Assembly: GCA_030041475.1 (NCBI GenBank)
Contig: JASHNU010000068.1
Span: 1-64,000, forward strand
Reading direction: 5' to 3'
From: Candidatus Sulfotelmatobacter sp.
Lineage (GTDB): Bacteria; Acidobacteriota; Terriglobia; Terriglobales; Acidobacteriaceae
DNA length: 64,000 bases
The notes under the pieces were generated by a model. The model was given only the letters and a program-made list of their open reading frames with translations. It did not search any database and had not been told where the DNA came from. Below are positions 16,347 through 35,175 of this stretch, piece by piece (the stretch's first letter is position 1; the number at the start of each line of letters is the position of its first letter). Made by a program: the position numbers and the translations under genes.

Positions 16347-17767
16347 CCGTCGCCTATCTCGCGAATCAGTTTCCTTCCCCGGTAGAACCTTACGTCGTCG
16401 AGGAGATTGAAGAATTGCGGCGGCGCGGCGTAACGGTAATCTCGGGCAGTGCGCGGAAACCGAGGGCTGGCGATTCAGGAGCGGGCGGCCAGTTGCTCCC
16501 GGATATCGTGCTGCAGAGTCTCGGAGTTGCTGTGTTCCTGCGGGCCTTGTGGCTGTGCGTGCGGCAATGGCGTCGGATTTCTGATTTGATCGCGTGCGTG
16601 GCCTACTGTGGTCGCGAAGGGTGCGTGCGACGCGTGAAGGCTCTGCTGAACACGTTGTTGGGAGCCTGCTACGCGATTCAGTTGGAACAGTACGGCATTC
16701 AGCACATTCATGCGCATCATGGATACTTCGGTTCCTGGATCGCGATGGTGGCAGCCAGATTCCTTGGAACCGGATTCAGCATGACGCTGCACGGTTCGGA
16801 CGTGTTGCTCGAGGGCCGAAACTATCTCGATGTGAAGCTCGAAAACTGCAGATTCTGCCTGACCATCTCCGAGTACAACCGGCAGTACGTGCTGAACCGC
16901 CATCCCGAGATTCCGGCATCGAAGTTGATTGTGTCACGGCTGGGAGTGGAGGTGGAGGATCGGGCAGGGTTGCCCGCAGTCAGGCTCGAGAGAGGCCGAT
17001 CCCGGCTCGTGCTGCTCACCGTGGGCCGGCTCCATGCCGTGAAGGATCACGCGTTTCTTGTACGCGCCTGCGCCGAGCTGCGCACCCGTGGTGTCGACTT
17101 TGAATGTTCGATTGCGGGGGACGGCCCCGAGCGCCGGCGGCTCGAATCGCTGATTGAGAAATGTGGCCTTGAAGGGCGGGTCACGTTGTTGGGGCATGTC
17201 GCGCGAGAACAGATGAACTCACTCTACGACCGCGCCGACATTGTCGTGCTGACCAGCCGCAGTGAAGGCCTTCCGCTGGTGCTGATGGAGGCCATGGCGC
17301 GCAGCAAGATTGTGCTGGCGCCAGACATCACCGGAATTCCCGAGCTTGTGATCGCCGGCAAGACAGGCTTTCTCTATGAGCCTGGTTCACTGGGCGACTT
17401 TGTTTCGCGCCTCCTGATGATTCGTTCGCTCATCCAGGAGCAGGAACTACCCGACTATCGGAGCGCCCCTTCTCATACTTCCGCACGCCAACTCTTCTCG
17501 GCGGCGCAACTGGACTGGATGCGGCACGCGGCCCAGGTGCAGGTCCGCCTCAATTTCAACAGCAGCAAGAATCTGAAAGCATTTGCCGAACTATTCATTC
17601 AGCAGATCGTTCGGCAGCAGATCATTCCGCAGGAAAGCATTCATCATGAGGATTCTTTATTGCAACAAATACAATCACCGGTTCAGTGGAACCGAGGTGT
17701 ACCTGTTCGAACTCATGGAGCTGATGAAAGCGCAGGGGCACGAAGTAGCGTTGTTCTCGATGTCTGA
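16340..17767 (+). CDS. GT4-type glycosyltransferase, C-terminus overlapping the next gene
   Basis: About 475 residues. The N-terminal half shows the GT-B acceptor domain (LTVAYLANQFPSPVEPYVVE, IQHIHAHHGYFGSWIAMVAA, FSMTLHGSDVLLEGRNYLD), and the second half the group 1 donor domain (LLTVGRLHAVKDHAFLV, CSIAGDGPERRRLESLI, VVLTSRSEGLPLVLMEAMAR with the E-x7-E region). It is cytosolic and adds a sugar to the lipid-linked repeat unit. GTG 16340 overlaps the end of the polymerase gene by 7 bases. The last about 40 residues (17646-17767) are read from DNA that also codes, in another frame, for the start of the next enzyme. Confidence 0.92.
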   Translation: MLTVAYLANQFPSPVEPYVVEEIEELRRRGVTVISGSARKPRAGDSGAGGQLLPDIVLQSLGVAVFLRALWLCVRQWRRISDLIACVAYCGREGCVRRVKALLNTLLGACYAIQLEQYGIQHIHAHHGYFGSWIAMVAARFLGTGFSMTLHGSDVLLEGRNYLDVKLENCRFCLTISEYNRQYVLNRHPEIPASKLIVSRLGVEVEDRAGLPAVRLERGRSRLVLLTVGRLHAVKDHAFLVRACAELRTRGVDFECSIAGDGPERRRLESLIEKCGLEGRVTLLGHVAREQMNSLYDRADIVVLTSRSEGLPLVLMEAMARSKIVLAPDITGIPELVIAGKTGFLYEPGSLGDFVSRLLMIRSLIQEQELPDYRSAPSHTSARQLFSAAQLDWMRHAAQVQVRLNFNSSKNLKAFAELFIQQIVRQQIIPQESIHHEDSLLQQIQSPVQWNRGVPVRTHGADESAGARSSVVLDV

Positions 17768-20159
17768 TCCGCGCGGAGAACCCACCGCCTACGATCACCA
17801 CTTCGTGCCCCCCATCGACTTCAAGCAGGACTGCGGCTTGTGGCAAAAGGCGCGACGCGCGGCTCACGCCATTTATTCCGTCGGGGCGCGGCGGCGAATC
17901 CGCGCTATGATCAAAGAGTTCCGGCCCGATGTGGCGCATGTGCGCAACATCTACCACCATTTGTCGCCATCAATTCTTTGGGAACTGAAGGCGCAAGGTG
18001 TCCCCGTCGTTTATCACCTGAACGATTTCAAACTGTTGTGTCCCAGCTACAACCTGGTCTCGCAAGGTGAGTCGTGCGAGGCGTGCAAGGGAGGGGCATT
18101 CTGGCACGCCCTTCCGCCAAAGTGTTATCCGGGGATGGGCGCGCGGGTAACCTTAGCGTTGGAAGCCTACGTTCACCGCGGGCTGGGCACGTATCGCAGA
18201 TGCGTAGACCTTTTCCTGGCGCCCAGTCAGTTTGTGCGCGACAAGTTCGTCGAGCACGGTTGGGATGGATCGAAGTTCGAAGTTCTCCCGCACTTTCAGC
18301 AGATTCGTGAAGCGCGCCCGGACTCCGCCGAGGGTCACGCGCCGATCCTGTACTTTGGGCGGTTGTCAGCAGAAAAGGCAGTGGACGACTTGCTGCGGGC
18401 GATGCTGCAAGTGCCGCATATGTGGCTGATCATTGCAGGCGATGGGCCGGAGCGGCCTGGCCTGCAGGAACTGGCAGCCGGGCTGGGCCTGAACAATGTT
18501 CAATTCGTGGGGCAAGTTGGCCACGCCGAACGCGATGCCTTGATCGCGCGGTCGCGCTTCACGGTCTTGCCTTCGCACGCTTACGAAACGCTTGGAAAGA
18601 CCATTCTCGAGTCTTATGCGCAGGGGCGGGCCGTGGTTGCGTCGGACTTGGGGTCGCGCAGGGAGCTGGTGCGCGACGGAGAGACCGGACTTCTCTATCG
18701 CACCGGGGATGTGAAGCAGCTCGCCGAAGCAATTGCAAGGCTCGGAGCCAGGCCCGACGTGGCCAAACGCATGGGAGCGGCGGGACGGGACTTGGTTCAG
18801 CGCAGTCACACCCCGGAGGGGCATTACCGCAAGCTGATGAGTATCTACCAGCGCTTGTTCGCCGCGCGGATGCAGCGGCGGCCCGCGCTTGTCGCCGTTG
18901 CAAGCCGTGTGCGGATTGACGGTCCCGGGCGACGGATGCTATCTCCCGGCGCCGAGGCGGCAACTGCTCCCACGAGGAGGAAGCTGCGGTTGGCCTTCAT
19001 TGGCGGGCGGGGCGTGATCTCAAAATACAGCGGCATTGAAGCCTATTACGAAGAGGTTGGAAAGCGCCTGGCGGCCATGGGGCATGATGTGACGGTGTAC
19101 TGCCGCACCTATTTCACGCCGGCGCTTTCAGAGCACAACGGCATGCGTCTGGTGCGCCTGCCAACTATCCGGTCCAAACATCTGGAGACCTTCGTACACA
19201 CCGTCCTGAGCACAGCACACGCCATGACTCGCGGCTTCGACGTGGTGCACTACCACGCACTGGGGCCAGCTCTGTTTTCCATTTTCCCGCGGTTGTTGGG
19301 GATTAAAACCGCCGTGACCGTGCAGGGTCTTGATTGGCAGCGAAGAAAGTGGGGGCGGCTGGCTTCGCAGGTATTGCGCGCGGGAGAACGAGCCTCGGTG
19401 CGATTTCCGAATGCGACGATGGTAGTGTCGCAGGTCCTTCAGCAGCGTTATCGTGACGTCCACGGGATTAACGCGTTTTATGTGCCTAACGGCGGCGTGA
19501 TGCGGGAAAGGAAGGAGCCACGGAAGATTCTGGAGTGGGACCTGGAGCCGGGCAACTACGTTTTGTTCCTGGGCAGATTCTCGCCCGAGAAAGGCTGCCA
19601 CCTGCTCGTCGAAGCCTTTGAGCAACTAAACACCGACGCAAAGCTGGTGATGGCAGGAGCCTCGAGCTATTGCGACGACTATAGCAAGGAACTGCGGACG
19701 CATGCTTCCGAACGGATTCGCATGCTCGACTGGGTGTCGGGCGAGACTCTCGATGAACTGATCACGAACGCCATGATCTTTGTCCTGCCGTCGGATCTGG
19801 AAGGCCTGTCTTTGGCGCTGCTCGATGCCATGGCCGCCGGGCTCTGTGTGTTGACCAGCGACGTTCCCGAAAACCGCGAAGTGGTAGACGGGGCGGGCTA
19901 CACCTTTCGGCGCTGCGACTCCGGGGATCTGGCCGATCGCCTGCGCTTCCTCATCGCGAATCCGGCGGTGCGCGAGGCCGCCGGACAGGCGGCGCGGCGG
20001 CGAATTCAAGAGCAATATCACTGGGGCAAGATTGCCGCCGACATCGAGAGAGCGTACTTCGACATCATGGAATGTCCTGAGGTGGCGCCAGCCAAGAAAC
20101 CGAGCGTCCCCACCTCTGCCGCTAATGCAGGCATAGTTCCGGAGCGTCGCACAGGATAA
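17646..20159 (+). CDS. Double glycosyltransferase: two GT4 enzymes fused head to tail
   Basis: About 837 residues holding two complete GT-B folds. Unit 1 (about 1-415): MRILYCNKYNHRFSGTEVYL, PILYFGRLSAEKAVDDLL, LIIAGDGPERPGLQEL, VLPSHAYETLGKTILESYAQ. Unit 2 (about 445-815): LRLAFIGGRGVISKYSGIEA, VLFLGRFSPEKGCHLLVEAF, FVLPSDLEGLSLALLDAMAA. Each has its own donor-site Glu region, so both may be active and add successive sugars. A Pro/Ala-rich linker joins them. ATG 17646 begins at the true N-terminal strand; the upstream in-frame extension to 17583 is spurious. The final 25 residues are disordered. This is the last gene before the rml block. Confidence 0.92.
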   Translation: MRILYCNKYNHRFSGTEVYLFELMELMKAQGHEVALFSMSDPRGEPTAYDHHFVPPIDFKQDCGLWQKARRAAHAIYSVGARRRIRAMIKEFRPDVAHVRNIYHHLSPSILWELKAQGVPVVYHLNDFKLLCPSYNLVSQGESCEACKGGAFWHALPPKCYPGMGARVTLALEAYVHRGLGTYRRCVDLFLAPSQFVRDKFVEHGWDGSKFEVLPHFQQIREARPDSAEGHAPILYFGRLSAEKAVDDLLRAMLQVPHMWLIIAGDGPERPGLQELAAGLGLNNVQFVGQVGHAERDALIARSRFTVLPSHAYETLGKTILESYAQGRAVVASDLGSRRELVRDGETGLLYRTGDVKQLAEAIARLGARPDVAKRMGAAGRDLVQRSHTPEGHYRKLMSIYQRLFAARMQRRPALVAVASRVRIDGPGRRMLSPGAEAATAPTRRKLRLAFIGGRGVISKYSGIEAYYEEVGKRLAAMGHDVTVYCRTYFTPALSEHNGMRLVRLPTIRSKHLETFVHTVLSTAHAMTRGFDVVHYHALGPALFSIFPRLLGIKTAVTVQGLDWQRRKWGRLASQVLRAGERASVRFPNATMVVSQVLQQRYRDVHGINAFYVPNGGVMRERKEPRKILEWDLEPGNYVLFLGRFSPEKGCHLLVEAFEQLNTDAKLVMAGASSYCDDYSKELRTHASERIRMLDWVSGETLDELITNAMIFVLPSDLEGLSLALLDAMAAGLCVLTSDVPENREVVDGAGYTFRRCDSGDLADRLRFLIANPAVREAAGQAARRRIQEQYHWGKIAADIERAYFDIMECPEVAPAKKPSVPTSAANAGIVPERRTG

Positions 20160-20473
20160 GCACCCACAAGCCGCGGTGACTCGCCCCCAAGCACCGGCCA
20201 CAATCAGGCAATCGGATACCGGGCGGGCCAAGCGGTAGTGGTGCAGTTTGGTTGTCATTCCGAACAAGCGTTTTTTGCGTCGTGAGGAACTTGGGCGAGC
20301 CGCGCGATGCGTCGCGTTTCTTGCGACGCACTAATCGCGCGTTTGGCTCGCTTCCTCATCAAACTGCACCACTACCGGCCAAGCCCGTCCTTTTTGTTTC
20401 AACCGATTCTTTATTACAATCAATTGCTCGTCCCGCGCCGCGCAGGGAAGGCGCCGAGCCAGCCACACTTCGC
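20160..20473. other. Intergenic region between the glycosyltransferases and rmlB
   Basis: About 310 bp without a gene. Contains a long inverted repeat at 20296-20353 (separate entry) and a TGTCATTCCGA trace near 20254 of the dispersed repeat. A frame open from 20252 runs into rmlB but lacks any domain before residue 75 and is not taken as coding. Confidence 0.55.
20296..20353. repeat. Long imperfect hairpin (about 58 bp)
   Basis: Inner stem GCGTCGC (20309-20315), loop gtttctt, GCGACGC (20323-20329); outer arms GCGAGCC and CGCGAT pair with ATCGCG and GGCTCGC further out, interrupted by short bulges. It could end transcription of the upstream operon or be a mobile palindromic repeat; no T-tract follows. 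Confidence 0.6.
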
Positions 20474-21538
20474 ATGCGAAATACGATTGTCGTCACCGGC
20501 GGCGCCGGATTCATCGGGTCCAATTTCATTCTGCAGCGGATGCAGGAGAAGACCGCCCCGATCATCAATCTGGATAAGCTGACCTACGCCGGGAACTTGC
20601 GCAATCTGGGCAGCGTGGCAGAAGACCGAGGGTATGAGTTCGTCCGCGGCGACATCGCGGAGCGTGCTCTGGTGCGCCGAGTACTCGAAACGCGCCTTCC
20701 CGGCGCGATTGTGCACTTTGCGGCGGAGAGCCATGTGGACCGGTCCATTCGCGGACCTGAAGACTTTATCCGTACCAACGTTGACGGAACGTTCGTGCTT
20801 CTCGAAGAGGTTCGCGCTTACTGGAGCAGCCTGAGCGCCGACGAGCAGAAGCGTTTTCGCTTTCTGCATGTGTCGACCGACGAGGTGTACGGTTCGCTGG
20901 GACCTGACGATCCGCCGTTTTGTGAGACCACGCCTTATGCACCGAACAGTCCGTATGCAGCTTCGAAGGCCGCGTCCGATCATCTGGTCCGGGCCTATCA
21001 CCACACCTATGGACTGCCCACGCTCACGACAAATTGCTCGAACAACTACGGCCGCTTTCAGTTTCCGGAAAAGTTGATTCCGCTGATGATCCTCAATGCT
21101 CGGGATGGGAAGTCACTGCCCGTCTATGGAGACGGGAAAAATGTGCGCGACTGGCTCCATGTGGAGGATCACTGCGACGCTATTTCGAAAGTGCTGCAAG
21201 GCGGGCGACCCGGAGAGGTGTACAACATCGGTGGCTGGAATGAAAAACGGAATCTGGAAATCGTGGAGACGGTTTGCGAACTCGTGGATGAGATGGCGCC
21301 GCGCCTCCCACGCCCGCGCCACGACCTGATCACTTTTGTCAAGGATCGGCCTGGGCACGACCGGCGGTACGCCATGGACGCGCGTAAGATCGAACGCGAA
21401 CTCGGCTGGAAACCGAAAGAGACGTTCGAGACCGGCATCCGCAAGACCGTACGCTGGTATCTTGAGAATGACGAGTGGGTACGCGGCGTGACCAGCGGAA
21501 GTTACCGTCAGTGGATTGAAACGCATTATTCGAGCTAG
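20474..21538 (+). CDS. rmlB: dTDP-glucose 4,6-dehydratase
   Basis: 354 residues. Second step of dTDP-L-rhamnose synthesis. An extended short-chain dehydrogenase with the NAD-binding [10 protein letters not shown] near the N-terminus, [12 protein letters not shown], the [10 protein letters not shown] motif with the dehydratase Asp/Glu pair nearby, and the catalytic YAASK. Starts at ATG 20474 because the Rossmann strand begins immediately after. First of four consecutive rhamnose genes (B-A-C-D) that feed the exopolysaccharide glycosyltransferases to the left. Confidence 0.97.
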
Positions 21539-21579
21539 GGTCAGAAGGAAGTCGAAAGGGGCTGAACATAGAGCAAACG

Positions 21580-22473
21580 ATGCAGGAAAGCAGGCGCTAC
21601 AAGGGGATTGTTCTGGCCGGGGGATCGGGCACGCGCCTTTATCCGGTGACGCAGGCCATGGGGAAGAGTCTGCTGCCGGTTTACAACAAGCCCATGATTT
21701 ACTACCCGCTGTGCACGCTGATGCTGGCGGGCATTCGGGATATTCTGATCATCTCCACTCCGGAAGATGTGCCCAAGTTTCAGGCGCTGCTGCGGGATGG
21801 GAGCCAGTACGGAATTCTCCTGCAATATTGCGTACAGCCCAGGCCTGAGGGGATTGCACAGGCGTTCGTGCTGGGGCAGGATTTTCTGGCCGGCAGCCCG
21901 TGCGCGCTGGTACTGGGGGACAACATCTTCTACGGGCACGATCTGGCCAAAGATTTGCGAGAGGCTGTGCAGAAGACGCAGGGTGCGCGTGTGTTCGCCT
22001 ATCCGGTGCACGATCCGGAGCGCTATGGAGTGGTGGAATTTGACGCGCAAGGCCGCGCACTGAGCATCGAGGAGAAACCGGCGCAGCCCAAGTCGCGGTA
22101 CGCTGTCACGGGCCTTTATTTTTATGACGAGCGCGTGGTGGAAATTGCGAAATCGCTCAAACCGAGCGCTCGCGGAGAACTCGAGATCACCGACGTCAAC
22201 AAGGCGTATCTGCAAGAAAAGCAACTCGATGTGGTTGTAATGGGCCGTGGCATGGCGTGGCTCGATACTGGCACGCATGAATCGTTGATGGATGCCGCGC
22301 TCTACATCCAGGCAATCGAAAAGAGGCAAGGCTTGATGGTGGCGTGCCCGGAAGAAATCGCCTACCGCTACGGCTACATCACGGCTGCGCAGATCGAGAA
22401 GATCGGACGCTCCATGAAAAACAGCAGCTACGGGGCCTACCTGCTACAGCTTCTGCGGGAAAAGGTATTCTGA
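21580..22473 (+). CDS. rmlA: Glucose-1-phosphate thymidylyltransferase
   Basis: 297 residues, the normal length. Makes dTDP-glucose from dTTP and glucose 1-phosphate. The nucleotide-binding signature [13 protein letters not shown], the [16 protein letters not shown] stretch, the metal-binding LGDNIFYG and [10 protein letters not shown] are all present. Its TGA overlaps the ATG of rmlC (TGATG). Confidence 0.97.
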
Positions 22474-23051
22474 TGAACGCGGGTCCGGTGCGCTCAATGA
22501 CAGAAGCAATCAAGACAATTCCGACCTCACTCCCCGGCATGCTCATTGTCGAGCCGCGCGTGTTTGGCGACGAGCGCGGATTTTTTCTTGAGAGCTACAA
22601 CGAGCGAGTGATGGCCGGGATCGGCATTCGCGAACGTTTCGTGCAGGACAACCATTCCTGTTCGAGACACAATGTGCTGCGCGGGCTGCATTACCAGATC
22701 ACGCAGGCGCAGGGAAAGCTGGTTCGCGTTGTAGAGGGAGAGATCCTCGACATTGCAGTCGATCTGCGCCGCAGTTCGCGCGCGTTCGGTGCGTGGGAGG
22801 GCGTGCGCCTGTCCGGTGAAAATAAACGCATGCTGTGGATCCCAGCCGGTTTTGCGCACGGATTCCGAGTGGTCTCCGAGAAGGCGCATGTTCTCTACAA
22901 GGCCACCGACTACTATGCGCCGGAACACGAACGCACGCTGGCATGGAACGATCCCGAACTGAAGATCGACTGGGAACACGACGGCAAGCCGATTGTGTCC
23001 GCCAAGGATCAGCGCGGTGTCGCTCTGCGGGATGCCGAAACCTTCGACTAG
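22473..23051 (+). CDS. rmlC: dTDP-4-dehydrorhamnose 3,5-epimerase
   Basis: About 192 residues, a cupin-type epimerase: VFGDERGFFLESYNE, FVQDNHSCSRHNVLRGLHYQ (with the catalytic His in the RGLHYQ motif), VVEGEILDIAVDLRRSS, and WIPAGFAHGFRVVSE. Third step of the rhamnose pathway. The start ATG 22473 overlaps the rmlA stop; ATG 22497 is a possible alternative. Confidence 0.96.
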   Translation: MNAGPVRSMTEAIKTIPTSLPGMLIVEPRVFGDERGFFLESYNERVMAGIGIRERFVQDNHSCSRHNVLRGLHYQITQAQGKLVRVVEGEILDIAVDLRRSSRAFGAWEGVRLSGENKRMLWIPAGFAHGFRVVSEKAHVLYKATDYYAPEHERTLAWNDPELKIDWEHDGKPIVSAKDQRGVALRDAETFD

Positions 23052-23069
23052 CGGCAGGAAAATCGCAAA

Positions 23070-23906
23070 ATGAAAGTCACGATCTTCGGCGCTTCGGGCC
23101 TTCTCGGCAAGGAGCTTTTGCGGGAGTGGACTGGCGATCATGTCGTCGGTCTGAATTCGCGCGACGCCGACATTCGCGACGCAAGCCAAGTGCGAGACGC
23201 TGTGGAGCGCACCAGCCCGGAGTGGATCATCCTGGCCGCTGCTTACACCGATGTGGACGGTTGCGAGAGTCATCGCGATCTTGCGTTCGCAGTAAATCGC
23301 GATGGAGCGGCCAACGTGGCGCAGGCGGCCAAACGCGCGGGCGCGAGGCTGTTGTTCCTCAGTTCCGATTACGTTTTCGACGGAACGAAAAACTCTCCCT
23401 ATGAAACTGGCGATCCGCGCAATCCGCAGAGCGTCTACGGTCGGTCGAAGGCTGAAGCAGAGATTCGTCTGCTCGAGATCATGCCCGAGTGTTGCATTGC
23501 GCGGACGTCCTGGCTGTTCGGCGTGGGCGGCAAGTGTTTTCCGGATACGATTCTCAGATTAGCAGCGACTCGGCCGACACTCGATGTCGTCAACGACCAG
23601 CGCGGCTGCCCGACCTACGCGGTGGACCTGGCTCGCGCCATTGTCGAACTCTGCCGCCGGAACGCGAGCGGAATCGTGCACGTGACGAATTCCGAAGACT
23701 GCACGTGGTTTGATTTTGCGCGCCAGATCATCAGGGGCGCGAAGCTGGCTACGGAAGTACGTCCCTCGACCAGTCAGCAAATGGCTCGCCCGGCGCCCCG
23801 TCCGGCGTATTCGGTTCTGTCCCCGGCCAGCCTGCATCACTACGGCGTCGTCATGCTCCCATGGCAGGATGCGCTCCAGCGCTATCTGCGGCAGCGGTTG
23901 AGCTGA
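23070..23906 (+). CDS. rmlD: dTDP-4-dehydrorhamnose reductase
   Basis: 278 residues. Reduces dTDP-4-dehydro-L-rhamnose to dTDP-L-rhamnose. Short-chain dehydrogenase features: MKVTIFGASGLLGKELLREW, DVDGCESHRDLAFAVNRDGA, LSSDYVFDG, and the YGRSKAEAE active site. The C-terminal substrate-binding part is typical. Last gene of the rml block; the tryptophan-degradation operon begins only 38 bases further on. Confidence 0.96.
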   Translation: MKVTIFGASGLLGKELLREWTGDHVVGLNSRDADIRDASQVRDAVERTSPEWIILAAAYTDVDGCESHRDLAFAVNRDGAANVAQAAKRAGARLLFLSSDYVFDGTKNSPYETGDPRNPQSVYGRSKAEAEIRLLEIMPECCIARTSWLFGVGGKCFPDTILRLAATRPTLDVVNDQRGCPTYAVDLARAIVELCRRNASGIVHVTNSEDCTWFDFARQIIRGAKLATEVRPSTSQQMARPAPRPAYSVLSPASLHHYGVVMLPWQDALQRYLRQRLS

Positions 23907-23944: not shown

Positions 23945-25420
23945 ATGCCGCAGGGTTTTCACCCAGTGAAGTCCATTCTCAATTACATTGGTGGCGAGTT
24001 TGTCCGCGGGAACCTGGAGTTCGCCGACGTGAATCCTGCAGATGGAAGCGTGATCGCGCAGGTTTCGCACGCGGACGAGAGCATTGTGGATCAAGCGGTC
24101 CAGGCCGCGCGGAAAGCCTTGCGTGGCGCGTGGGGACGGTTGGGGGTTCGCGATCGTGCGCAACGTTTGCATAAAGTTGCGGATGCGATCGAGACCCGGT
24201 TCGACGATTTTGTTCAAGCCGAAGTCGCAGACACCGGCAAGCCAGCGGCTGTGGCGTCAAGGCTGGACGTTCCGCGCGCAGCTGCCAACTTTCGAGCCTT
24301 CGCGGATCTCATCAAAACAGTAGGCCTCGAATCCTTTTACACAGAAACTCCCGATGGAAAGAGCGCGCTGAATTATGCGGTGCGCAAACCGCTCGGTGTG
24401 GTTGGGATCATCACTCCGTGGAACTTGCCGCTATTGTTGCTGACCTGGAAAGTCGCTCCGGCGCTGGCCTGTGGAAATGCGGTCGTGGTGAAGCCCTCCG
24501 AGGAGACTCCGGCTACGGCCACGCTGCTGGCTGAAGTCACGGCGGAAGCCGGCATTCCGCACGGAGTCTACAACGTGGTACACGGATTCGGACCGAACTC
24601 TGCGGGCGAGTGTCTCACTCGGCACCCTGACATGAATGCAATCACCTTCACGGGAGAGTCGCAGACGGGAGCCGCGATCATGAAAACCGTCGCCGCTTCG
24701 GTGAAGCCGGTCTCGTTTGAGCTGGGTGGCAAGAACGCCGCGATTGTCTTCGCCGACTGCGATTTCGAAGATACGGTGAACGGTGTCGCCGAGGCTGTGT
24801 TCCTCAATACCGGGCAAGTGTGCCTGTGCGCAGAGCGCGTCTACGTGGAGCGCGCGATGTTTCCCCGTTTTGTTGAGGCGCTCAAGCACAAAGCGGAACA
24901 TTTGAGGATCGGCTCGCCGCTAGACTGCGCAACGGAGCTCGGACCTCTGATCTCAGCCGCACATCGCGAGAAGGTGCTTTCGTATTATCGCTTGGCGAGC
25001 GAAGAGGGAGCGACGGTCGTGGCTGGGGGCGGCGTTCCAGAGTTCGGCAATACGCTCGACAAAGGCTTTTACATACAGCCGACGATCTATACTGGGCTGG
25101 CAGAATCGGCTCGCTGCGTAAAAGAAGAAATTTTCGGGCCGGTCTGTCATATCGCTCCGTTCGACGCTGAAGAAGAAGCCGTGGCGATGGCCAACGACAC
25201 GAGATACGGGCTGGCTGCCTCCATCTGGACTACAAATCTAAAGCGCGGCCACCGCGTGGCACAGGAGATGAACGCCGGCATCACTTGGGTGAATTGCTGG
25301 TTCCTGCGCGATTTGCGCACGCCATTCGGAGGCATGGGGCTCTCCGGCATTGGGCGCGAAGGTGGGATGCACTCGCTGAATTTTTATTCCGAGCTGAACA
25401 ATATCTGTGTTCGACTGTAA
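23945..25420 (+). CDS. amnC: 2-aminomuconate 6-semialdehyde dehydrogenase (ALDH family)
   Basis: 491 residues, one complete NAD-dependent aldehyde dehydrogenase: [20 protein letters not shown] (cofactor site), [23 protein letters not shown] with the general-base Glu, and the nucleophile in [14 protein letters not shown]. The 2-hydroxymuconic/2-aminomuconic semialdehyde dehydrogenase assignment comes from [20 protein letters not shown] near the C-terminus plus its place next to the RidA, dioxygenase and decarboxylase genes. It would oxidise the semialdehyde formed after ACMSD to 2-aminomuconate. ATG 23945 or GTG 23966 are both possible starts; neither has a strong ribosome-binding site. Confidence 0.88.
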
Positions 25421-25445
25421 GAGGTGGGGCAAGCTGGTTAGAGGT

Positions 25446-25868
25446 ATGGGGAACGTTGAAAGCAAAGTTATTGCGGGCAAGGCGAAACCGCGCGGCAAGT
25501 ATCCGCACATCAAGCGTGCCGGCGATTTTCTGATTGTGTCCGGTACCAGTGCCCGCCGCGCTGATAATACGATCGCTGGCGCGCAGGCCGACGAATTCGG
25601 CACGACGCACCTCGACATCCGCGAGCAGACCAGAGCAGTGATCCAGAACGTTCACGACATTCTGCGCAGCGCCGGCGCCGAACTGAAAGACGTGGTGGAA
25701 GTGACGACGTACCTGGTCACGATGAATGATTTTGCGGGATACAACGACGTGTACGGCGAGTATTTCGGCTACGACGGGCCTGCACGGACAACCGTTGCCG
25801 TTCACCAGTTGCCGCATCCTCACCTGCTGATTGAAATTCGTGCAGTGGCTTACAAGCCGGAGAGATAG
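25446..25868 (+). CDS. RidA-family protein, probable 2-aminomuconate deaminase
   Basis: About 140 residues, a RidA/YjgF trimer-type fold: [52 protein letters not shown], and [15 protein letters not shown] at the C-terminus, where RidA proteins carry their catalytic Glu/Arg region. In 3-hydroxyanthranilate and 2-nitrobenzoate pathways the RidA-like enzyme deaminates 2-aminomuconate to 4-oxalocrotonate; the neighbours here make that role likely. ATG 25446 chosen because upstream residues do not match the family. The gene is 25 bases behind the dehydrogenase gene. Confidence 0.85.
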
Positions 25869-26410
<542 letters not shown>

Positions 26411-26411
<1 letters not shown>

Positions 26412-28264
26412 TGCGCGTCATCGACATACACAATCATTTCTTCCCGCGTCAATGGCCGGACCTGGCCGCGCGCTACGGCACTCCCAATTGGCCGTGGATT
26501 AAACACACGGCGGCGGGGAAAGCGGAAATCATGGTGGGCGATCGCTTCTTCCGCCTGATCTATTCCGCATGTTGGGACCCCGAACTGCGCTCGCGCGAGA
26601 TGGACCGCGACGGCGTTGACCTGCAGGTCATCTCGGCCACGCCGGTGCTGTTTGCCTATGACCGCCCGGCGGAGCATGCCCTCGATTGTGCGCGGCTTTT
26701 CAACGATGCAGCGCTTGAACTCTGCGCGCGTGGAAATGGACGCCTGCGGTCGCTGTGCCAGGTGCCTCTGCAAGACGTCGATGCTGCGTGCAAGGAAGTG
26801 AGCCGGTGCGTTGGCGCCGGACACCTCGGCGTCGAAATTGGAAACCACGTTGGCGACAAAAATCTTGATGATCCCGGCATCGTGACCTTTCTGCATCATT
26901 GCGCAGATGAAGGCGCGGCCGTGTTGGTTCATCCCTGGGATATGTTCGGTGCGCGGCGCATGCCGAACTACATGATGCCGTGGACAGTCGGTATGCCTGC
27001 CGAAACGCAGCTCGGCATTGTGGCGATGATTCTGGGCGGAGCGTTCGACAAGCTGCCGAAAAGTCTGCGCATTTGCTTTGCCCATGGCGGAGGAAGTTTT
27101 GCATTTCTGCTGGGACGCCTGGAGAACGCATGGCAGCATCATCCGCTGGCTCATGGCGTTTGCGAGCAGGCGCCCAGCAGCTATTTGAATCGCCTTTATG
27201 TGGATTCGGCGGTGTTTGATCAGCGAGCGCTGCAGTTTCTGGTTGGAACTATGGGCGCGGAGCGCGTGATGCTGGGATCAGACTATCCCTTCCCGCTCGG
27301 CGAACACGGCATTGGAAACCTGATTCGATCGAGCCAGCTCGACGCGCGAGCGAAAGCTCGTCTGCTGGGTGAGAACGCGACCGAGTTCCTCGGACTTGAG
27401 CGTGATCAACCCGCGGCTGGCAAGAATCACCAGAACATGCCCATTGTTGTCAACAGCGAACAGCTCACTTACAGCTCGTACTTGAAAGTTCCGGAGTTGC
27501 TCGAACTGCAGCATCCGCAGTCTTCGCCTCCGCATCACGACGAGTTGCTGTTTATCATTGTGCACCAGACCTACGAGTTATGGTTCAAGGAACTGCTGCA
27601 CGATTTGGACGCGGTGGTAAAGAATTTGCGCGATGCGGGAGCCAATCCGAACTCGCGCGACGAAGTCTACGAGGCGGCACGGCTGCTGCGCCGCTGCACG
27701 GAAATTACGCGTGTGCTGGTGGAGCAGTTCACCATTCTGGAAACTATGCTCCCTACTCACTTTCTGGCATTTCGGGGCAAGCTCGAGCCGGCAAGCGGGT
27801 TCCAGTCGGAGCAGTTTCGAGAATTGGAGTTCCTGTGCGGTCTGAAAGACGAAAAAATGCTCGCGTATCATCGCCCTACTCCAGAGGGCCACGCACTGCT
27901 GGAACGCAGGCTCCGCGAGCCTTCTCTGCGGGACGTATTTTTTGATGCGCTGCAAGCCATGGGCAGACTGAAATGTGAGGAGAACGCGACGGAGCGCCAG
28001 CGATTCGAGGCGCGTGCGCGGGCCATTCTGTCGTTGTATCGGGACGAACATAACAACCGCGATTGGATCGACGTCTGCGAGCGGCTCACAGAATTCGACG
28101 AACTGGTCGTGAGCTGGCGGCTGCGTCACATTCAGCTGGTCGAGCGCACCATAGGAGTTCGAATGGGAACGGGAGGAAGCGCCGGGTCATCGTACTTAAA
28201 GCTTACGCTGGACAAGAAATTCTTCCCCGAGTTGTGGGAGGCGCGCACGCTGCTGACGCAGTAA
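26411..28264 (+). CDS. Fusion enzyme: 2-amino-3-carboxymuconate 6-semialdehyde decarboxylase + tryptophan 2,3-dioxygenase
   Basis: One open frame of 617 residues with two complete enzymes. Residues 1-335 are an ACMSD amidohydrolase: His7 and His9 (DIHNHFFP), His174 (VLVHPWDMFG), His225 (CFAHGGGSFAF) and Asp291 (GSDYPFPLGE) form the zinc site. Residues 343-617 are a heme tryptophan 2,3-dioxygenase: LTYSSYLKVPELLELQ, active-site His385 (IIVHQTYELWF), ASGFQSEQFRELEFLCG, heme-ligand His573 (RLRHIQLVERTIG) and MGTGGSAGSSYLK. A linker of only about ten residues joins them, and I read the bases through the junction (27390-27480) without a stop or frame change. An internal ATG (27437) marks the ancestral dioxygenase start but has no ribosome-binding site. 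The dioxygenase opens the pathway; the decarboxylase acts four to five steps later. Confidence 0.93.
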
Positions 28265-28339: not shown

Positions 28340-29707
28340 ATGCCTGCAAAACCGCAAACGATCACATTGGTGGGCGCGGGGCTCAACGGTCCACTGCTCG
28401 CAATGGGCCTGCGCCGGCACGGCTTCACCGTCGAGATCTACGAGCGGCGCTCTGACATGCGGCGCGTGCGCATGAGCGCCGGACGATCCATCAACCTGGC
28501 CTTGTCTGCACGAGGAATTCATGCCCTGACCGACGCGGGATTGTGGGGCAACATGAGGAAAATCATCACCCCTATGAAAGGCAGGATGATGCATTCCGTC
28601 GCCTCGGAGCTCACATTTCAGCCTTACGGAAAAAATGAAGCCGAGGTCATCAATTCGATCTCCCGCGCCGAACTGAACATAGCATTGATGAACGCGGCGG
28701 AAGCCGAGGGCGTCAGGATCTTTTTTCAGCAGCGCTGCACGGGAATGGACCTGAAAACCGGATTTGTCCATCTCCATGATGAGCAAACGGGTGAAGAGAG
28801 GACGGTTGAGTCAGCAGTTGTGATCGGATGCGACGGGTCGGCATCGGCGATTCGCAACGAGATGCTGAAGCTGAACCGCTTCAAGTTCTCCCAGCAGTAT
28901 CTCGATTACGGCTACAAGGAACTGACGATTCCAGCAGGCCCGAATGGAACTCACGTAATCGAGGAAAATGCACTGCATATCTGGCCGCGAGGCAATTACA
29001 TGCTGATTGCTCTGCCGAATATCGACGGCACGTTTGCCTGCATTCTTTTCTTGCCTTTTGAAGGGAACGACAGCTTTGCGCAACTGAACAAGCACAACGA
29101 AGTGCTCGGGTTCTTCCAGTCGCGCTTCCCGGATGCGGTTCCGTTAATGCCGCAACTGACGGACAATTTCTTCAGCAATCCCACAGGAGCCATGGTGACC
29201 GTCAAGTGCTCGCCCTGGCATGTGGAGGGAAAGGCGCTTCTGCTGGGCGATGCCGCGCACGCGATCGTGCCGTTCTTCGGGCAGGGCATCAACTGCGGCT
29301 TCGAGGATTGCACCTGCCTGCTGGAGTTGCTCGACCGCCATGGAGCAGACTGGGCGCGATTGTTTCGGGAGTTTGAGCAGGCGCGAAAGGTAAACACCGA
29401 TGCCATCGCAGACATGGCGGTAGAAAATTTCGTGGAGATGCGCGATCGCGTCGCGGACCCGAAGTTTCTCTTCCGCAAGCGGGTCGAGCTGGCGCTGGAA
29501 GAAAGGTTTCCACACCTATTTGTGCCCAAGTATGCGATGGTCACATTTCATCGCATTCCCTACGCCACTGCGATGAAACGCGGCACAGTGCAGGAGCGCA
29601 TCCTCGCAGAGCTGTGCGCTTCGATCGAACGAATTGACGAGCTCGATTGGGGCAAGGCCGAGCGGATGATCGGTGCCGACTTGACTCCGCTGGAGCTGGC
29701 TGCTTGA
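28340..29707 (+). CDS. kmo: Kynurenine 3-monooxygenase
   Basis: 455 residues, an FAD-dependent aromatic hydroxylase that converts kynurenine to 3-hydroxykynurenine with NADPH and O2. It has the FAD-binding GAGLNGPLLAMGL near the N-terminus, AGRSINLALSARG (a kmo-specific stretch), NSISRAELNIALM, CDGSASAIRNEM, and the second FAD motif LLGDAAHAIVPFFGQGINCG. The C-terminal substrate/membrane region is full length. It follows the fusion gene after a 75-base gap and overlaps kynU (TGATG). Confidence 0.96.
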   Translation: MPAKPQTITLVGAGLNGPLLAMGLRRHGFTVEIYERRSDMRRVRMSAGRSINLALSARGIHALTDAGLWGNMRKIITPMKGRMMHSVASELTFQPYGKNEAEVINSISRAELNIALMNAAEAEGVRIFFQQRCTGMDLKTGFVHLHDEQTGEERTVESAVVIGCDGSASAIRNEMLKLNRFKFSQQYLDYGYKELTIPAGPNGTHVIEENALHIWPRGNYMLIALPNIDGTFACILFLPFEGNDSFAQLNKHNEVLGFFQSRFPDAVPLMPQLTDNFFSNPTGAMVTVKCSPWHVEGKALLLGDAAHAIVPFFGQGINCGFEDCTCLLELLDRHGADWARLFREFEQARKVNTDAIADMAVENFVEMRDRVADPKFLFRKRVELALEERFPHLFVPKYAMVTFHRIPYATAMKRGTVQERILAELCASIERIDELDWGKAERMIGADLTPLELAA

Positions 29708-30993
29708 TGGAATTTTCTTTTCAGGACGGCCCGGAGTTTGCCGCGGCCATGGACGAGCGCGATCCGCTCTCGCATTTCCGGGAACGCTTCTACATTCCAA
29801 AAACCAAGAACGGCAAGGAGTGCATTTACTTGTGCGGGCACTCGCTCGGTCTGCAGCCGAAAACGGCCAAGCCCTGTCTGGAGCAAGAGCTGCGCGACTG
29901 GGCCGAGCTGGGGGTTGAGGGCCATTTTCACGCGAGAAATCCCTGGGTGCCCTATCACCGCCTTCTGACGCAACAAACCGCAGCGCTTGTCGGAGCGAAA
30001 CCTTCCGAAGTCGTGGTCATGAATTCTCTGACGGTAAACCTGCACCTCATGATGGCGACCTTCTACCGTCCGACGGAGCGGAGACACAGGATTCTGGTTG
30101 AAGGAGGCGCGTTCCCATCGGATCAATATGCGGTGAAGTCGCAGATTCAGTTTCATGGATTCGATCCGGTGTCGTCTCTGGTGGAGCTTACTCCGCGCCA
30201 GGGCGAGTTTTGTCTTCACGATGAAGATATCGAATCGCTAATCGAACGCGAGGGCGGGTCCCTCGCGCTCATTTTGCTCGGCGGCATTAACTACGTGACC
30301 GGACAACTTTTCGACATGGCGAAAATCACAGAGAGCGGACGCCGCGCAGGATGTATCGTGGGCTTTGACCTGGCACACGCGGCGGGCAATGTGCAGCTCA
30401 AGCTGCATGAGTGGGGCCCGGACTTCGCCGTGTGGTGCAGCTACAAATATCTGAACGGCGGCCCGGGATGCGTCGGCGGGTGCTTCGTGCATGAACGGCA
30501 CGGACGCTCGTGGGATCTGCCTCGCTTTGCCGGCTGGTGGGGGCACGACGAAAGAAGCCGATTTCAGATGGGGCCGGATTTTCGTGCGATGGCGGGCGCC
30601 GAGGGCTGGCAGTTGAGCAATCCGCCAATCCTTGCGCTCGCCCCGCTGCGCGCGGCTATGAATATTTTTGCCGAGGCTGGGATGGACCGGCTGCGCGCCA
30701 AAAGCGTTTCACTGACCGCATATATGGAATTTCTCTTGGGGAAGCAAGCGTCGTCGCAATTCGAAATCATCACTCCGAAGGATCCGAGCCGTCGAGGAGC
30801 CCAGATCTCGATTCGCCTGCCTCGCAACGGCCGACAGCTCTGCGACAACCTCATCGCCGAAGGCGTGATCGGCGACTGGCGCGAGCCGGACACCTTCCGC
30901 GTTGCGGCGGTACCCCTATACAACTCATACCAGGATGTTTACCGTTTCGCTCAGCACTTTTCCAAAAGGTTGTCCGGCGGTAAATACTTCTGA
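29707..30993 (+). CDS. kynU: Kynureninase
   Basis: 428 residues, a PLP enzyme that splits 3-hydroxykynurenine into 3-hydroxyanthranilate and alanine. The family motifs are visible: YLCGHSLGLQPKTA at the N-terminus, FDLAHAAGNVQLKLHEWG (cofactor Asp), and WCSYKYLNGGPG with the PLP lysine at residue 247. ATG 29707 overlaps the kmo stop. It ends the operon; a short dyad (GTTACC-tc-GGTAAC, 31007-31020) follows. Confidence 0.96.
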   Translation: MEFSFQDGPEFAAAMDERDPLSHFRERFYIPKTKNGKECIYLCGHSLGLQPKTAKPCLEQELRDWAELGVEGHFHARNPWVPYHRLLTQQTAALVGAKPSEVVVMNSLTVNLHLMMATFYRPTERRHRILVEGGAFPSDQYAVKSQIQFHGFDPVSSLVELTPRQGEFCLHDEDIESLIEREGGSLALILLGGINYVTGQLFDMAKITESGRRAGCIVGFDLAHAAGNVQLKLHEWGPDFAVWCSYKYLNGGPGCVGGCFVHERHGRSWDLPRFAGWWGHDERSRFQMGPDFRAMAGAEGWQLSNPPILALAPLRAAMNIFAEAGMDRLRAKSVSLTAYMEFLLGKQASSQFEIITPKDPSRRGAQISIRLPRNGRQLCDNLIAEGVIGDWREPDTFRVAAVPLYNSYQDVYRFAQHFSKRLSGGKYF

Positions 30994-31050: not shown

Positions 31051-32910
31051 TTGCTCGTGGGGAAAACTCCGCACCAACACGCCCGGACGTGGACAATCGT
31101 GGTGTGCGCAGTGGTGTGCCTGCACATCGCGATCTCGATTCTCGCTCCGCGCAGCTTCCCGCTGACTGCCTTCGGCGATCTTCTCCAGAACACTGTTCTT
31201 TTGGGCGCTACAGTGACTTTTCTGCTTAAGGTCAGAACGGCGGCGCGCAGAGCGCGCCTGTTCTGGGTGCTCATGTCTCTAGGCCTGGGGATGTGGCTCA
31301 TTTCGCAAGTCGGTTGGACGTATTTCGAGATCTATCTGCGACAAGAGGCGCCGAACCCATTTGTTGGGGACGTGATTCTTTTTCTGCACATCGTTCCCAT
31401 GATGGCGGCCGTGGCCCTCCAGCCCCATGTTCAACGAGATGATCGCACCATCCGAGTCGGAACACTCGATTTCGCCCTTCTGCTCACGTGGTGGCTGTTT
31501 CTGTACCTCTTTGTGGTGATTCCGTGGCAGTACGTCCATCCTACAGAAGCGCTGTATGGCCGAAGCTTCGATTCGCTCTACGTGAGTGAAGAACTCGTCC
31601 TCGCCGGGGCGTTGATCCTGGTGTGGCGGCGGAGCCAGGGCGCATGGAGAAGCATTTATCTGCACCTGTTCGGGGCAACGCTGTTATATTGCGTGGCCTC
31701 GGTCGTCGCCAGTGAGGCTATTGATTTACACCTGTATCACACAGGCAGCCTCTTCGACGTACCGCTGGTTGCGTCGATGCTGTGGTTTGTGCGCATCGGT
31801 TTTCTGCCGTGTGACGACGCCGCGGCAAGCCCGGCGGCGACCGCGACAGGCTATGGCATCTGGAAGGCTCGCCTGTCGATGGTGGCCGTTTTTGTCACTC
31901 CTTTGATGATGGCGTGGGCACAGTTTGGGGGCGACGCGCCGCGCAGAGTCCGTGAATATCGGCTGTTGATCACGGTTGCCGTCATGATCGTGATGGGAGC
32001 GCTGGTATTTCTCAAGCAACATCTGCTCGATCGAGAGTTACTCAATTTGCTGCGGTCGTCGCGCGACAACCTGGACGAGATGTGTCGGCTGAAAGATGAG
32101 CTGGAGAACAAGGAACACTCGCTGCGTTGGCACAGCCTGGAATTGCAGCGGAAGAACCTGGAATTACAAGAGATTTCCTTCACCGATGTATTGACGGGAG
32201 TCTGGAACCGCCGCTACATGGAGGAGATTCTCATTGCCGAAGCGGGGCAAGTGCTGCGGAATTACCAGCGAGCGCGCGGCAGCGGCATCCGAAAGATGGA
32301 TCATCGTGATCTCGTCTTCATCATGGTGGACGTGGATTTCTTCAAAGAAGTGAACGATCTGCATGGCCATCCCGCCGGCGACCGGCTGCTGCAACTGGTG
32401 GCGCAAAGGTTGTCGACAGTGGTGCGCAAATCGGACGTGCTGGTGAGGTGGGGCGGGGAGGAATTTCTGATCATGAGCCGCTCCACTGATCCTGGTGGCA
32501 CACCGGCATTCTGCAGCCGCGTGCTGGAAGTGATGTCTTTGGAGCCGTTCGACCTGGGCCACGGCATCACCGTGAAGAAAACTTGTTCTGTCGGCTGGGC
32601 GCCTTATCCCTGGAGCCGTGCCGCATTTGAGGCGATCTGCGCGGAGGAAGTCATCGCCCTGGCCGACGCCGCCCTGTATCGCGCAAAGGCATTGGGCAGA
32701 AATCAGGGGGTGGGATATGTGCCCGGGGATGCGGTTGCGCGCAATCCGGAAACTGTAGATTTAAAGTCTGTGCGCGACGGCAAACCGCCTCTGGTTCACG
32801 TTGTGCGAACCGAATGTCCCAGCAGCAGTGGCGTTGGAGCCGAGGCTGATGCCACTGACACAGGCAGCGATTTGCGGAAGGAGTTTTCTTCTTCCATCGA
32901 TCCCGCCTGA
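31051..32910 (+). CDS. Membrane-bound diguanylate cyclase (GGDEF)
   Basis: About 619 residues. Residues 1-330 hold nine or ten membrane helices in a sensor-like arrangement; a short coiled coil (about 335-372, HSLELQRKNLELQEI) joins it to a GGDEF domain. The active motif is GGEEF (468-472) and the product-inhibition site RKSD lies exactly five residues before it (459-462), so the enzyme should make c-di-GMP under feedback control. The C-terminal 70 residues are disordered. Start is uncertain: TTG 31051, GTG 31057 or later. It could supply the ligand for the PilZ-TonB protein at 5569, but distance makes that speculative. Confidence 0.92.
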   Translation: MLVGKTPHQHARTWTIVVCAVVCLHIAISILAPRSFPLTAFGDLLQNTVLLGATVTFLLKVRTAARRARLFWVLMSLGLGMWLISQVGWTYFEIYLRQEAPNPFVGDVILFLHIVPMMAAVALQPHVQRDDRTIRVGTLDFALLLTWWLFLYLFVVIPWQYVHPTEALYGRSFDSLYVSEELVLAGALILVWRRSQGAWRSIYLHLFGATLLYCVASVVASEAIDLHLYHTGSLFDVPLVASMLWFVRIGFLPCDDAAASPAATATGYGIWKARLSMVAVFVTPLMMAWAQFGGDAPRRVREYRLLITVAVMIVMGALVFLKQHLLDRELLNLLRSSRDNLDEMCRLKDELENKEHSLRWHSLELQRKNLELQEISFTDVLTGVWNRRYMEEILIAEAGQVLRNYQRARGSGIRKMDHRDLVFIMVDVDFFKEVNDLHGHPAGDRLLQLVAQRLSTVVRKSDVLVRWGGEEFLIMSRSTDPGGTPAFCSRVLEVMSLEPFDLGHGITVKKTCSVGWAPYPWSRAAFEAICAEEVIALADAALYRAKALGRNQGVGYVPGDAVARNPETVDLKSVRDGKPPLVHVVRTECPSSSGVGAEADATDTGSDLRKEFSSSIDPA

Positions 32911-33672: not shown

Positions 33673-35175
33673 CTAGCCGATTCTCGCGCACACTGCTTTC
33701 GTCTGGGTGTAGTTGTTGAGCACATCGTGTCCCATCTCTCGTCCCCAGCCGGACTGCTTGTACCCTCCGAACGGCAGGGCCGCATCGAAAATGTTGTAGC
33801 AGTTGATCCACACTGTGCCCGCGCGCAGCTGCGCTGCCATGCGATGCGCTTTGTCGATGTCCTTTGTCCAGACCGCCGCCGCCAGGCCGTATGTGCTGTC
33901 GTTGGCACGAGGAATAATCTCCTCCGGATCACTGAACGGCATCGCCGCCACCACGGGCCCGAAGATTTCTTCCTTCACCACCTTCATGTTTTCGGTCGTG
34001 TCTACCAGCACCGTCGGCTCCACGAAATATCCGCGATCGCCGGCCTTGTGCCCGCCGACCACAGCCTTCGCACCTTCCGCGAATCCGGCTTCGAGATATC
34101 CGCACACGCGATCCAGTTGTTCGGTCGAAACCAGCGGTCCCATCTGCGTCTTCGGATCCAGCCCTGAGCCCACGCGGATCTTCTTCGCCTGCGCCGCGAC
34201 TCCCTCTACCACTTGATCGTAGATCGACTTCTCCACATACAACCGCGATCCCGCGCAGCAGCACTGCCCGTGATTGAAGAAGATGGCGCTCGCCGATCCG
34301 GGAATCGCAACCTCCAGGTCCGCATCCTTGAACACCACGTTCGGAGACTTTCCACCCAGCTCCAGCGTCACTTTCTTCAAGTTGCCGGCTGCCGCGTGCA
34401 CGATCAGCTTGCCCACCTCGGTTGATCCCGTGAACGCAACCTTGTCCACATCCGGATGCGCCGCCAGCGCCGCACCAGCCGTTTCGCCGTAGCCAGTTAC
34501 GATGTTGACCACTCCGTCGGAGAAGCCTGCCTCGCAGATCAACTCACCCAGACGCAGCGCCGAGAGCGGCGTCTGCTCCGCCGGCTTCAACACAACAGTG
34601 CAACCCGTCGCTAGCGCCGGACCCAGCTTCCACGCCGCCATCAGCAGCGGGAAGTTCCAGGGAATAATCTGCCCCACCACGCCCACCGGCTCACGCAGCG
34701 TATAGGCCAGATACTGCGCTCCCGGCGTATACGGAACGGACAGCGGAATGGTGTTGCCTTCCAGCTTCGTCGCCCATCCCGCCATATAGCGAAACAGCTC
34801 CGACGCCAGCGGCACATCCGCCGCCTTCGCGATCGTCAGCGGCTTGCCGTTATCGAGGCTTTCCAGATAGCCGAACTCTTCATTGTGGGCGTCGATCAGA
34901 TCGGCTAGCTTCCACATCAACCGTCCGCGCTCCGACGCCGTCATCCGGCTCCACGGGCCCTCAAATGCCTTGCTTGCTGCCCGCACCGCCCGCTCGATAT
35001 CTTCACGATCTCCTTCCGCGATCTTGGCCAGTACTTCACCCGTTGCAGGATTGTATGTTGGAAACGTCTTGCCGGAAGCGGCTTGAACCCACTTGCCGTT
35101 GATCAGCATCGGCCGTGGCTTGTCGATGAACTCGGCCACTTGCGGATGAATTTCCGGGGAAACTGCGATGCCCAT
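33673..35175 (-). CDS. NAD-dependent aldehyde dehydrogenase
   Basis: 500 residues, a complete class 1/2-like aldehyde dehydrogenase: GQIIPWNFPLLMAAWKLGPA, FTGSTEVGKLIV, LELGGKSPNVVF (base Glu) and the nucleophile in NHGQCCCAGSRLYVEKS. PFGGYKQSGWGREMG closes the fold. Excellent ribosome-binding site AAAGGAGG four bases before ATG. It is the third gene of a leftward deoC-ALDH16-ALDH unit, where acetaldehyde released by deoxyribose-phosphate aldolase is the natural candidate substrate; this is inference from position. Confidence 0.93.
   Translation of the reverse strand: MGIAVSPEIHPQVAEFIDKPRPMLINGKWVQAASGKTFPTYNPATGEVLAKIAEGDREDIERAVRAASKAFEGPWSRMTASERGRLMWKLADLIDAHNEEFGYLESLDNGKPLTIAKAADVPLASELFRYMAGWATKLEGNTIPLSVPYTPGAQYLAYTLREPVGVVGQIIPWNFPLLMAAWKLGPALATGCTVVLKPAEQTPLSALRLGELICEAGFSDGVVNIVTGYGETAGAALAAHPDVDKVAFTGSTEVGKLIVHAAAGNLKKVTLELGGKSPNVVFKDADLEVAIPGSASAIFFNHGQCCCAGSRLYVEKSIYDQVVEGVAAQAKKIRVGSGLDPKTQMGPLVSTEQLDRVCGYLEAGFAEGAKAVVGGHKAGDRGYFVEPTVLVDTTENMKVVKEEIFGPVVAAMPFSDPEEIIPRANDSTYGLAAAVWTKDIDKAHRMAAQLRAGTVWINCYNIFDAALPFGGYKQSGWGREMGHDVLNNYTQTKAVCARIG

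Follow-up and report, generated by a model that had tools for sequence, protein, structure and literature searches.

A single-origin fusion of ACMSD and tryptophan 2,3-dioxygenase in an acidobacterial kynurenine operon

Enzyme fusions usually join consecutive steps of a pathway or subunits of one complex. The window analysed here, a 64,000-nucleotide stretch of a Candidatus Sulfotelmatobacter genome, holds a gene in which ACMSD is joined to tryptophan 2,3-dioxygenase (TDO), that is, a drain of the kynurenine pathway to its inflow, five reactions apart, where an unstable intermediate splits between catabolism and NAD. Is such a gene real, how did it arise, and what might the joining do? By sequence comparison, it is a fusion of single origin that lies in a kynurenine operon, reads as one unbroken frame and keeps the active sites of both enzymes.

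One reading frame with two enzyme domains

The fusion frame runs from an ATG at 26411 to a TAA at 28262–28264 and encodes 617 residues with no stop within (Table 1). The earlier note had described a single frame of this length with a complete ACMSD and a complete TDO, and its coordinates, strand and length were all exact. Pfam places Amidohydro_2 at residues 4–329 and Trp_dioxygenase from residue 349, and the residues that the note had named (His7, His9, His174, His225, Asp291, His385, His573 and the motif GTGGSAG) are confirmed by alignments and conservation.

Table 1. Features of the fusion gene and its operon, in window coordinates
Feature	Position	Strand	Basis
AMSDH (2-aminomuconate semialdehyde dehydrogenase-type ALDH)	23945..25420	+	TIGR03216, 857 bits vs cut-off 693; position kept in relatives
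RidA-family protein, probable 2-aminomuconate deaminase	25407..25868	+	PF01042; position kept in relatives
HAO (3-hydroxyanthranilate 3,4-dioxygenase)	25878..26411	+	TIGR03037 and NF009763 above cut-off
HAO stop / ACMSD-TDO start overlap, TAATG	26409..26413	+	sequence
ACMSD-TDO fusion gene, 617 aa	26411..28264	+	frame without stop; Pfam and structure-sequence matches
ACMSD domain, aa 1-329, amidohydrolase-2 fold	26411..27397	+	2hbv match, predicted fold, invariant active site
Linker, aa 330-351, disordered, sequence-neutral, in frame	27398..27463	+	pLDDT, dN/dS, linker comparison
MPIVVNSEQ, likely remnant of ancestral TDO N-terminus	27437..27463	+	likeness to f83 TDO starts
TDO domain, aa 352-617	27464..28261	+	PF03301 E 1.4e-57; XcTDO 2nw7 E 8e-52
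KMO-like FAD monooxygenase (kynurenine 3-monooxygenase)	28340..29707	+	PF01494; operon position conserved
KYNU (kynureninase)	29647..30993	+	TIGR01814, 450 bits vs cut-off 246

The first half matches the ACMSD of P. fluorescens (PfACMSD, PDB 2hbv) over residues 4–328 with an E value of 1e-120, against 1e-26 for the next amidohydrolase decarboxylase family. The predicted fold superimposes on PfACMSD with Z ~50 and an rmsd of 1.3–1.4 (next family, Z 36); by both sequence E and structure Z, this half groups with characterised ACMSD and not with other amidohydrolase decarboxylases. His7, His9, His174, His225 and Asp291 align with PfACMSD H9, H11, H177, H228 and D294. The zinc ligands H7, H9, H174 and D291 are invariant across 16 fusions and 35 stand-alone rows, and the catalytic H225 and the substrate arginines R48 and R236 are likewise invariant (Pf H228, R51 and R239*, the last from the neighbour subunit). 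PfACMSD and human ACMSD have the same fold, zinc ligands, catalytic histidine and substrate arginines as the fusion, with structural-alignment identities of 53% and 40%, respectively, but both are stand-alone proteins without the C-terminal TDO that the fusion carries.

The second half scores 196 bits against PF03301 (curated cut-off 34.9) and matches the TDO of X. campestris (XcTDO, PDB 2nw7; Table 1). It misses the cut-off of the tryptophan 2,3-dioxygenase equivalog TIGR03036 (238.3 versus 390.7 bits) with nearly the whole model covered, and, lying above the Pfam cut-off and below the NCBIfam one, it is best regarded as a divergent TDO. His385 and His573 align with the distal H55 and the heme ligand H240 of XcTDO, and H573, H385, R455, T587, Y354 and Y357 (Xc H240, H55, R117, T254 and Y24/Y27) are invariant in the 16 fusions. 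The heme histidine, distal histidine, tryptophan-carboxylate arginine and N-terminal tyrosines are thus common to both proteins; XcTDO, however, stands alone, and the fused TDO belongs to a divergent acidobacterial type closest to stand-alone TDOs of family f83. The identity of this half rests on sequence, because ACMSD-type chains fill the whole fold-search list.

Between the halves lies a linker that had been put at about ten residues and is in fact about 20 long: the ACMSD fold ends at around residues 329–334, the conserved TDO start LTY occupies residues 352–354, and residues 336–349 are predicted to be disordered (pLDDT < 50). The structure model, built from an 86-row alignment, has a mean pLDDT of 91 and two confident domains (an earlier model from 13 fusion rows reached 68), and because its pTM is low (0.59) it gives no defined domain–domain arrangement. 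Forty distinct linkers were compared; they are 6–50 residues long, rich in A, S, P, E, G, T and Q, and every one is open and in frame. Purifying selection on each half is strong, with a median dN/dS of 0.085 for the ACMSD half and 0.062 for the TDO half, and the linker stands at ~0.97. Since dN/dS is about 1 there and yet all 40 linkers are in frame, the linker sequence is free to drift while the frame is not. A disordered, sequence-neutral linker rich in A, S, P, E and G would also suit a chain that is made whole and then cut into two ordinary enzymes, but the 40 linkers show no conserved cleavage motif and an in-frame linker does not in itself demand cutting, which leaves such processing improbable.

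A Cys-Pro motif, GCP[FVA], which recalls heme-regulatory CP motifs, occurs in the longer linkers of loci L031–L037 (genera g32, g43 and g68); neither the window's genus nor the stand-alone TDOs have it.

Distribution and origin of the fusion

Among 61 genomes searched, the full-length frame was found in 29 of the 37 belonging to the window's genus, the window included, and the other full-length members share 76–85% identity with the window's fusion. Two more genus genomes have the frame broken inside a domain and not at the junction, and one further genome has the fusion split over contigs, so that the genus carriers number 32 (29 full-length and three broken or fragmentary). The earlier note had proposed looking for the same domain pair in other Acidobacteriota, and it is present across several genera and families: a class-wide sample placed it in genera g32 and g43 of the same family and in g68 of another, and a contig scan added at least two Bryobacterales MAGs. 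This wider scan used two ACMSD peptide patterns, and its fusions are those among the matches listed; others may be missed. In all, both domains lie in one frame at 56 loci, some of which represent one genome reached twice. Named carriers include Candidatus Sulfotelmatobacter MAGs and further peat and soil MAGs of the Acidobacteriaceae. The fusion is the only TDO of the window's genome, and a plasmid search returned no record covering 80% of the query.

Two suspicions already voiced in the earlier note, a sequencing error at the junction and separate initiation at ATG 27437, do not survive this comparison. In favour of an assembly or sequencing artefact, or of an internal start giving separate proteins, most relatives are MAGs and the window does have an in-frame ATG at the junction. 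However, assemblies made independently, by different projects and from different sites, are all fused, among them G276, a single-contig genome of 5.7 Mb. ATG 27437 is missing in most relatives, many linkers have no in-frame ATG, GTG or TTG at all, and the 40 distinct linkers share neither an internal start nor a Shine-Dalgarno sequence. With the frame intact in 29 of the 37 genus genomes, the two breaks inside domains and no conserved start in the linker, we dropped both readings as extremely improbable. On this comparative evidence the fusion is natural and conserved, and no artefact.

The fused TDOs form one clade (support 100/86) whose nearest relatives are the stand-alone TDOs of family f83, in the same phylum. 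The fused ACMSDs also form one clade (support 100/99), which falls inside proteobacterial ACMSD and apart from other Acidobacteriota ACMSDs. The two trees indicate a single joining event, between a proteobacterial-type ACMSD and an acidobacterial TDO. In all that was sampled beyond the fusion clade, ACMSD and TDO have a gene each, in keeping with what the earlier note had said of other bacteria.

The proteobacterial AMSDH–RidA–HAO–ACMSD block of the tryptophan / 2-nitrobenzoate degradation type has the same gene order and closely related ACMSDs; in Proteobacteria the ACMSD frame ends at a stop and other genes come next, whereas in the window the fused TDO and then KMO–KYNU follow. In the simplest history, such a block would have been put before tdo–kmo–kynU and the acmsd stop lost. 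Stand-alone f83 TDOs start with MNTQSPIKPESDQLTY, MAHDSPLIPSPDQVTY or MTPQAPLKPTEEQLTY, and the fused linkers end similarly (window, MPIVVNSEQLTY; others, ...SPIAPEPGQLTY and ...APIVPHAEQLTY). From this short similarity we infer that part of the linker is the old TDO N-terminus. It is very probable that the gene encodes one bifunctional polypeptide with both activities, born when the upstream proteobacterial-type acmsd, its stop lost, ran into the 5' end of the neighbouring tdo, whose former N-terminus became part of the linker.

Full-span matches at three alphaproteobacterial loci, of Emcibacterales and Kordiimonadales (L078, L080 and L132), were rejected as fusions in another phylum. Here acmsd and tdo are adjacent in the order and on the strand found in the fusion but, unlike it, are two ORFs with a distant TDO type, and nadA is present. 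The acmsd-adjacent tdo of these loci is very divergent, and two of the three come with a second TDO elsewhere.

The earlier note knew of no described example, and our literature search likewise turned up no prior description of an ACMSD–TDO fusion, with most subscription journals and InterPro architecture lists outside its reach. Both domains are familiar ones; what seems new, as far as could be searched, is their architecture and the joining of an entry enzyme to a branch enzyme.

Operon, NAD genes and possible function

The operon order is AMSDH, RidA, HAO, ACMSD-TDO, KMO and KYNU, so that TDO, KMO, KYNU and HAO of kynurenine-route NAD biosynthesis are all encoded in it. The overlap of the HAO stop with the fusion start makes translational coupling likely, and KYNU probably has its real start at ~29707. 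No NCBIfam equivalog scored above cut-off for the KMO candidate, and a PF04199 family search for kynurenine formamidase, the enzyme of step two, found no cyclase-type enzyme in the window's genome, which otherwise has the pathway.

nadA was found in none of the 32 fusion carriers of the genus and nadC in 30 of them; the window's genome has no nadA, and its nadC is split over two contigs. By comparison, two of the five genus non-carriers have nadA, and these two are without any TDO or ACMSD. nadA is also present in all 21 non-carriers sampled from other genera of the family; a Fisher test on the nadA and fusion counts ignores shared ancestry and is descriptive only. The absence of nadA with nadC kept, a pattern of the bacterial kynurenine route to NAD, is probably the signature of that route in the window's genus too. 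Classical NAD-type bacterial kynurenine pathways are not known to include ACMSD, whereas here ACMSD, which drains the precursor of quinolinate, shares one frame with the entry enzyme. The distribution of nadA and the fusion fits the published statement that the aspartate and the kynurenine routes to quinolinate operate together in few if any bacteria (PMC4217691).

This association is not universal. Two carriers outside the genus, G276 and G375, keep nadA, so a general equation of the fusion with nadA loss failed for two genera, and the fusion neither needed nor forced that loss. nadC is also missing in four of the six g68 genomes and in both Bryobacterales carriers, where quinolinate therefore cannot feed NAD. 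Most genomes of the genus also have nicotinate salvage (PF04095), and the kynurenine route thus need not be their sole NAD source.

Six fusion carriers had neither nadA nor nadC detected; possibly de novo NAD synthesis is lost in them, or the MAGs are incomplete. The only nadA-bearing members of the genus are G010 and G029, and the nadA of G029 (~315 aa, E 7e-115) has a score similar to that of nadA in distant groups, so that gene transfer may have exchanged one NAD route for the other.

As to purpose, the earlier note had suggested that the fusion enforces equal amounts of the two enzymes and so avoids quinolinate formation. Equal amounts remain a sensible idea, but avoidance is not supported: the genus carriers, all without nadA, nearly always keep nadC, which uses quinolinate for NAD, so that quinolinate is probably needed and part of the flow would have to reach it. 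We tentatively favour a source–sink ratio device, at somewhat less than even odds. ACMS cyclises unaided to quinolinate within minutes, and ACMSD competes with this reaction (PMC11650718). TDO would set tryptophan inflow and ACMSD would drain the branch point, from which ACMS goes to catabolism by decarboxylation or to NAD by its own cyclisation to quinolinate. In a fixed 1:1 pair, the steady-state level of ACMS would depend on per-molecule turnover and not on protein amount, the spontaneous leak would stay constant over a wide expression range, and the branch could serve as a controlled NAD supply, under which the aspartate route (nadA) could be lost, as in the window's genus. More doubtful than the device itself is this whole chain, from a fixed entry/branch ratio through a leak independent of enzyme amount to a dependable NAD supply that allows nadA loss.

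A steady-state model illustrates the idea. At 1:1, enzyme amount cancels and the flux to quinolinate approaches k*vT/(kcat/Km), where vT is inflow per TDO, k was assumed to be 5e-4 to 5e-3 per second and the PfACMSD constants came from the literature (PMC11650718). With constants so borrowed from a homologue and the in-between enzymes assumed not to be limiting, the modelled flux when fused is ~1–90 uM/h and flat over 0.1–10 uM enzyme (100-fold), against a 24- to 1000-fold spread for independent enzyme levels (CV 0.5), a gain that the model overstates because co-transcribed separate genes would also correlate enzyme levels. If TDO turnover exceeds that of ACMSD, modelled quinolinate rises steeply, as an overflow whose size tryptophan sets. 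Against a ratio device counts that the product of TDO must pass four further steps before it becomes ACMS, and the reading is weakened further by the lack of a PF04199 cyclase-type formamidase match in the genome, by the nadA of G276 and G375, by the carriers without nadC and by nicotinate salvage. Direct channelling between the domains was rejected, given the five reactions that separate them and a disordered, length-variable linker; the earlier note had rightly seen in two complete enzymes of non-consecutive steps no simple substrate-channelling pair.

The fusion might instead serve assembly, with the TDO tetramer as a tether that raises local ACMSD concentration and keeps its active dimeric or tetrameric state. 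Only dimers or larger oligomers of ACMSD are active, since the neighbour subunit's Arg239 completes each active site, and the enzyme's activity tracks its oligomeric state (PMC10143591, PMC11650718); R236, its equivalent, is invariant in the fusions. TDOs are homotetramers in which each active site is completed by the N-terminal segment of an adjacent subunit (PMC5071832), and two domains modelled as well folded on a flexible linker would suit tethering. On the other hand, ACMSD stands alone in every other bacterium sampled, and a linker of 6–50 residues is hard to square with a finely built assembly, although simple tethering could tolerate it. We consider a scaffold rather unlikely, and we give about the same low weight to a neutral operon fusion, in which a stop was lost once, both enzymes remained fine and nothing was gained in function. 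Such a fusion would have been kept because splitting it would need a new start site. The neutral evolution of the linker sequence, its eightfold length variation and the non-consecutive steps all agree with this, and the adjacent separate genes of Emcibacterales and Kordiimonadales suggest that adjacency is easily reached; but no intact re-split copy was seen among the sampled carriers despite wide divergence, the fusion is spread over several genera and families, and nadA loss is associated with it at genus level. Taken as a whole, a single-origin, bifunctional fusion acting as a source–sink ratio device is the best explanation, with a probability of roughly 45%.

The steady quinolinate level has been called 'perplexing', and transient HAO–ACMSD–AMSDH complexes have been proposed (PMC10143591). 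A natural fixed-ratio fusion, found in lineages with and without nadA, would make control of the spontaneous branch directly testable. The carriers are soil and peat Acidobacteria, most of their genomes without nadA, and the ACMSD–TDO architecture could mark these kynurenine-route Acidobacteria in metagenomes.

Genes around the operon

Directly upstream of the kynurenine operon, across a gap of 38 bp, lies rmlBACD (dTDP-rhamnose; window 20252–23906). Its position is conserved in most of the genus (same place in loci L056–L072), and co-transcription is possible. After the operon comes a GGDEF diguanylate cyclase (31051–32910), also conserved in position among relatives. A single ALDH (33673–35175) adjoins a 795-residue protein on the minus strand (35286–37673) that carries two aldehyde dehydrogenase domains in an ALDH16-like layout, the second of them partial. 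Another natural fusion is found at 17583–20159 (+), where an 858-residue frame holds two tandem GT4-type glycosyltransferases.
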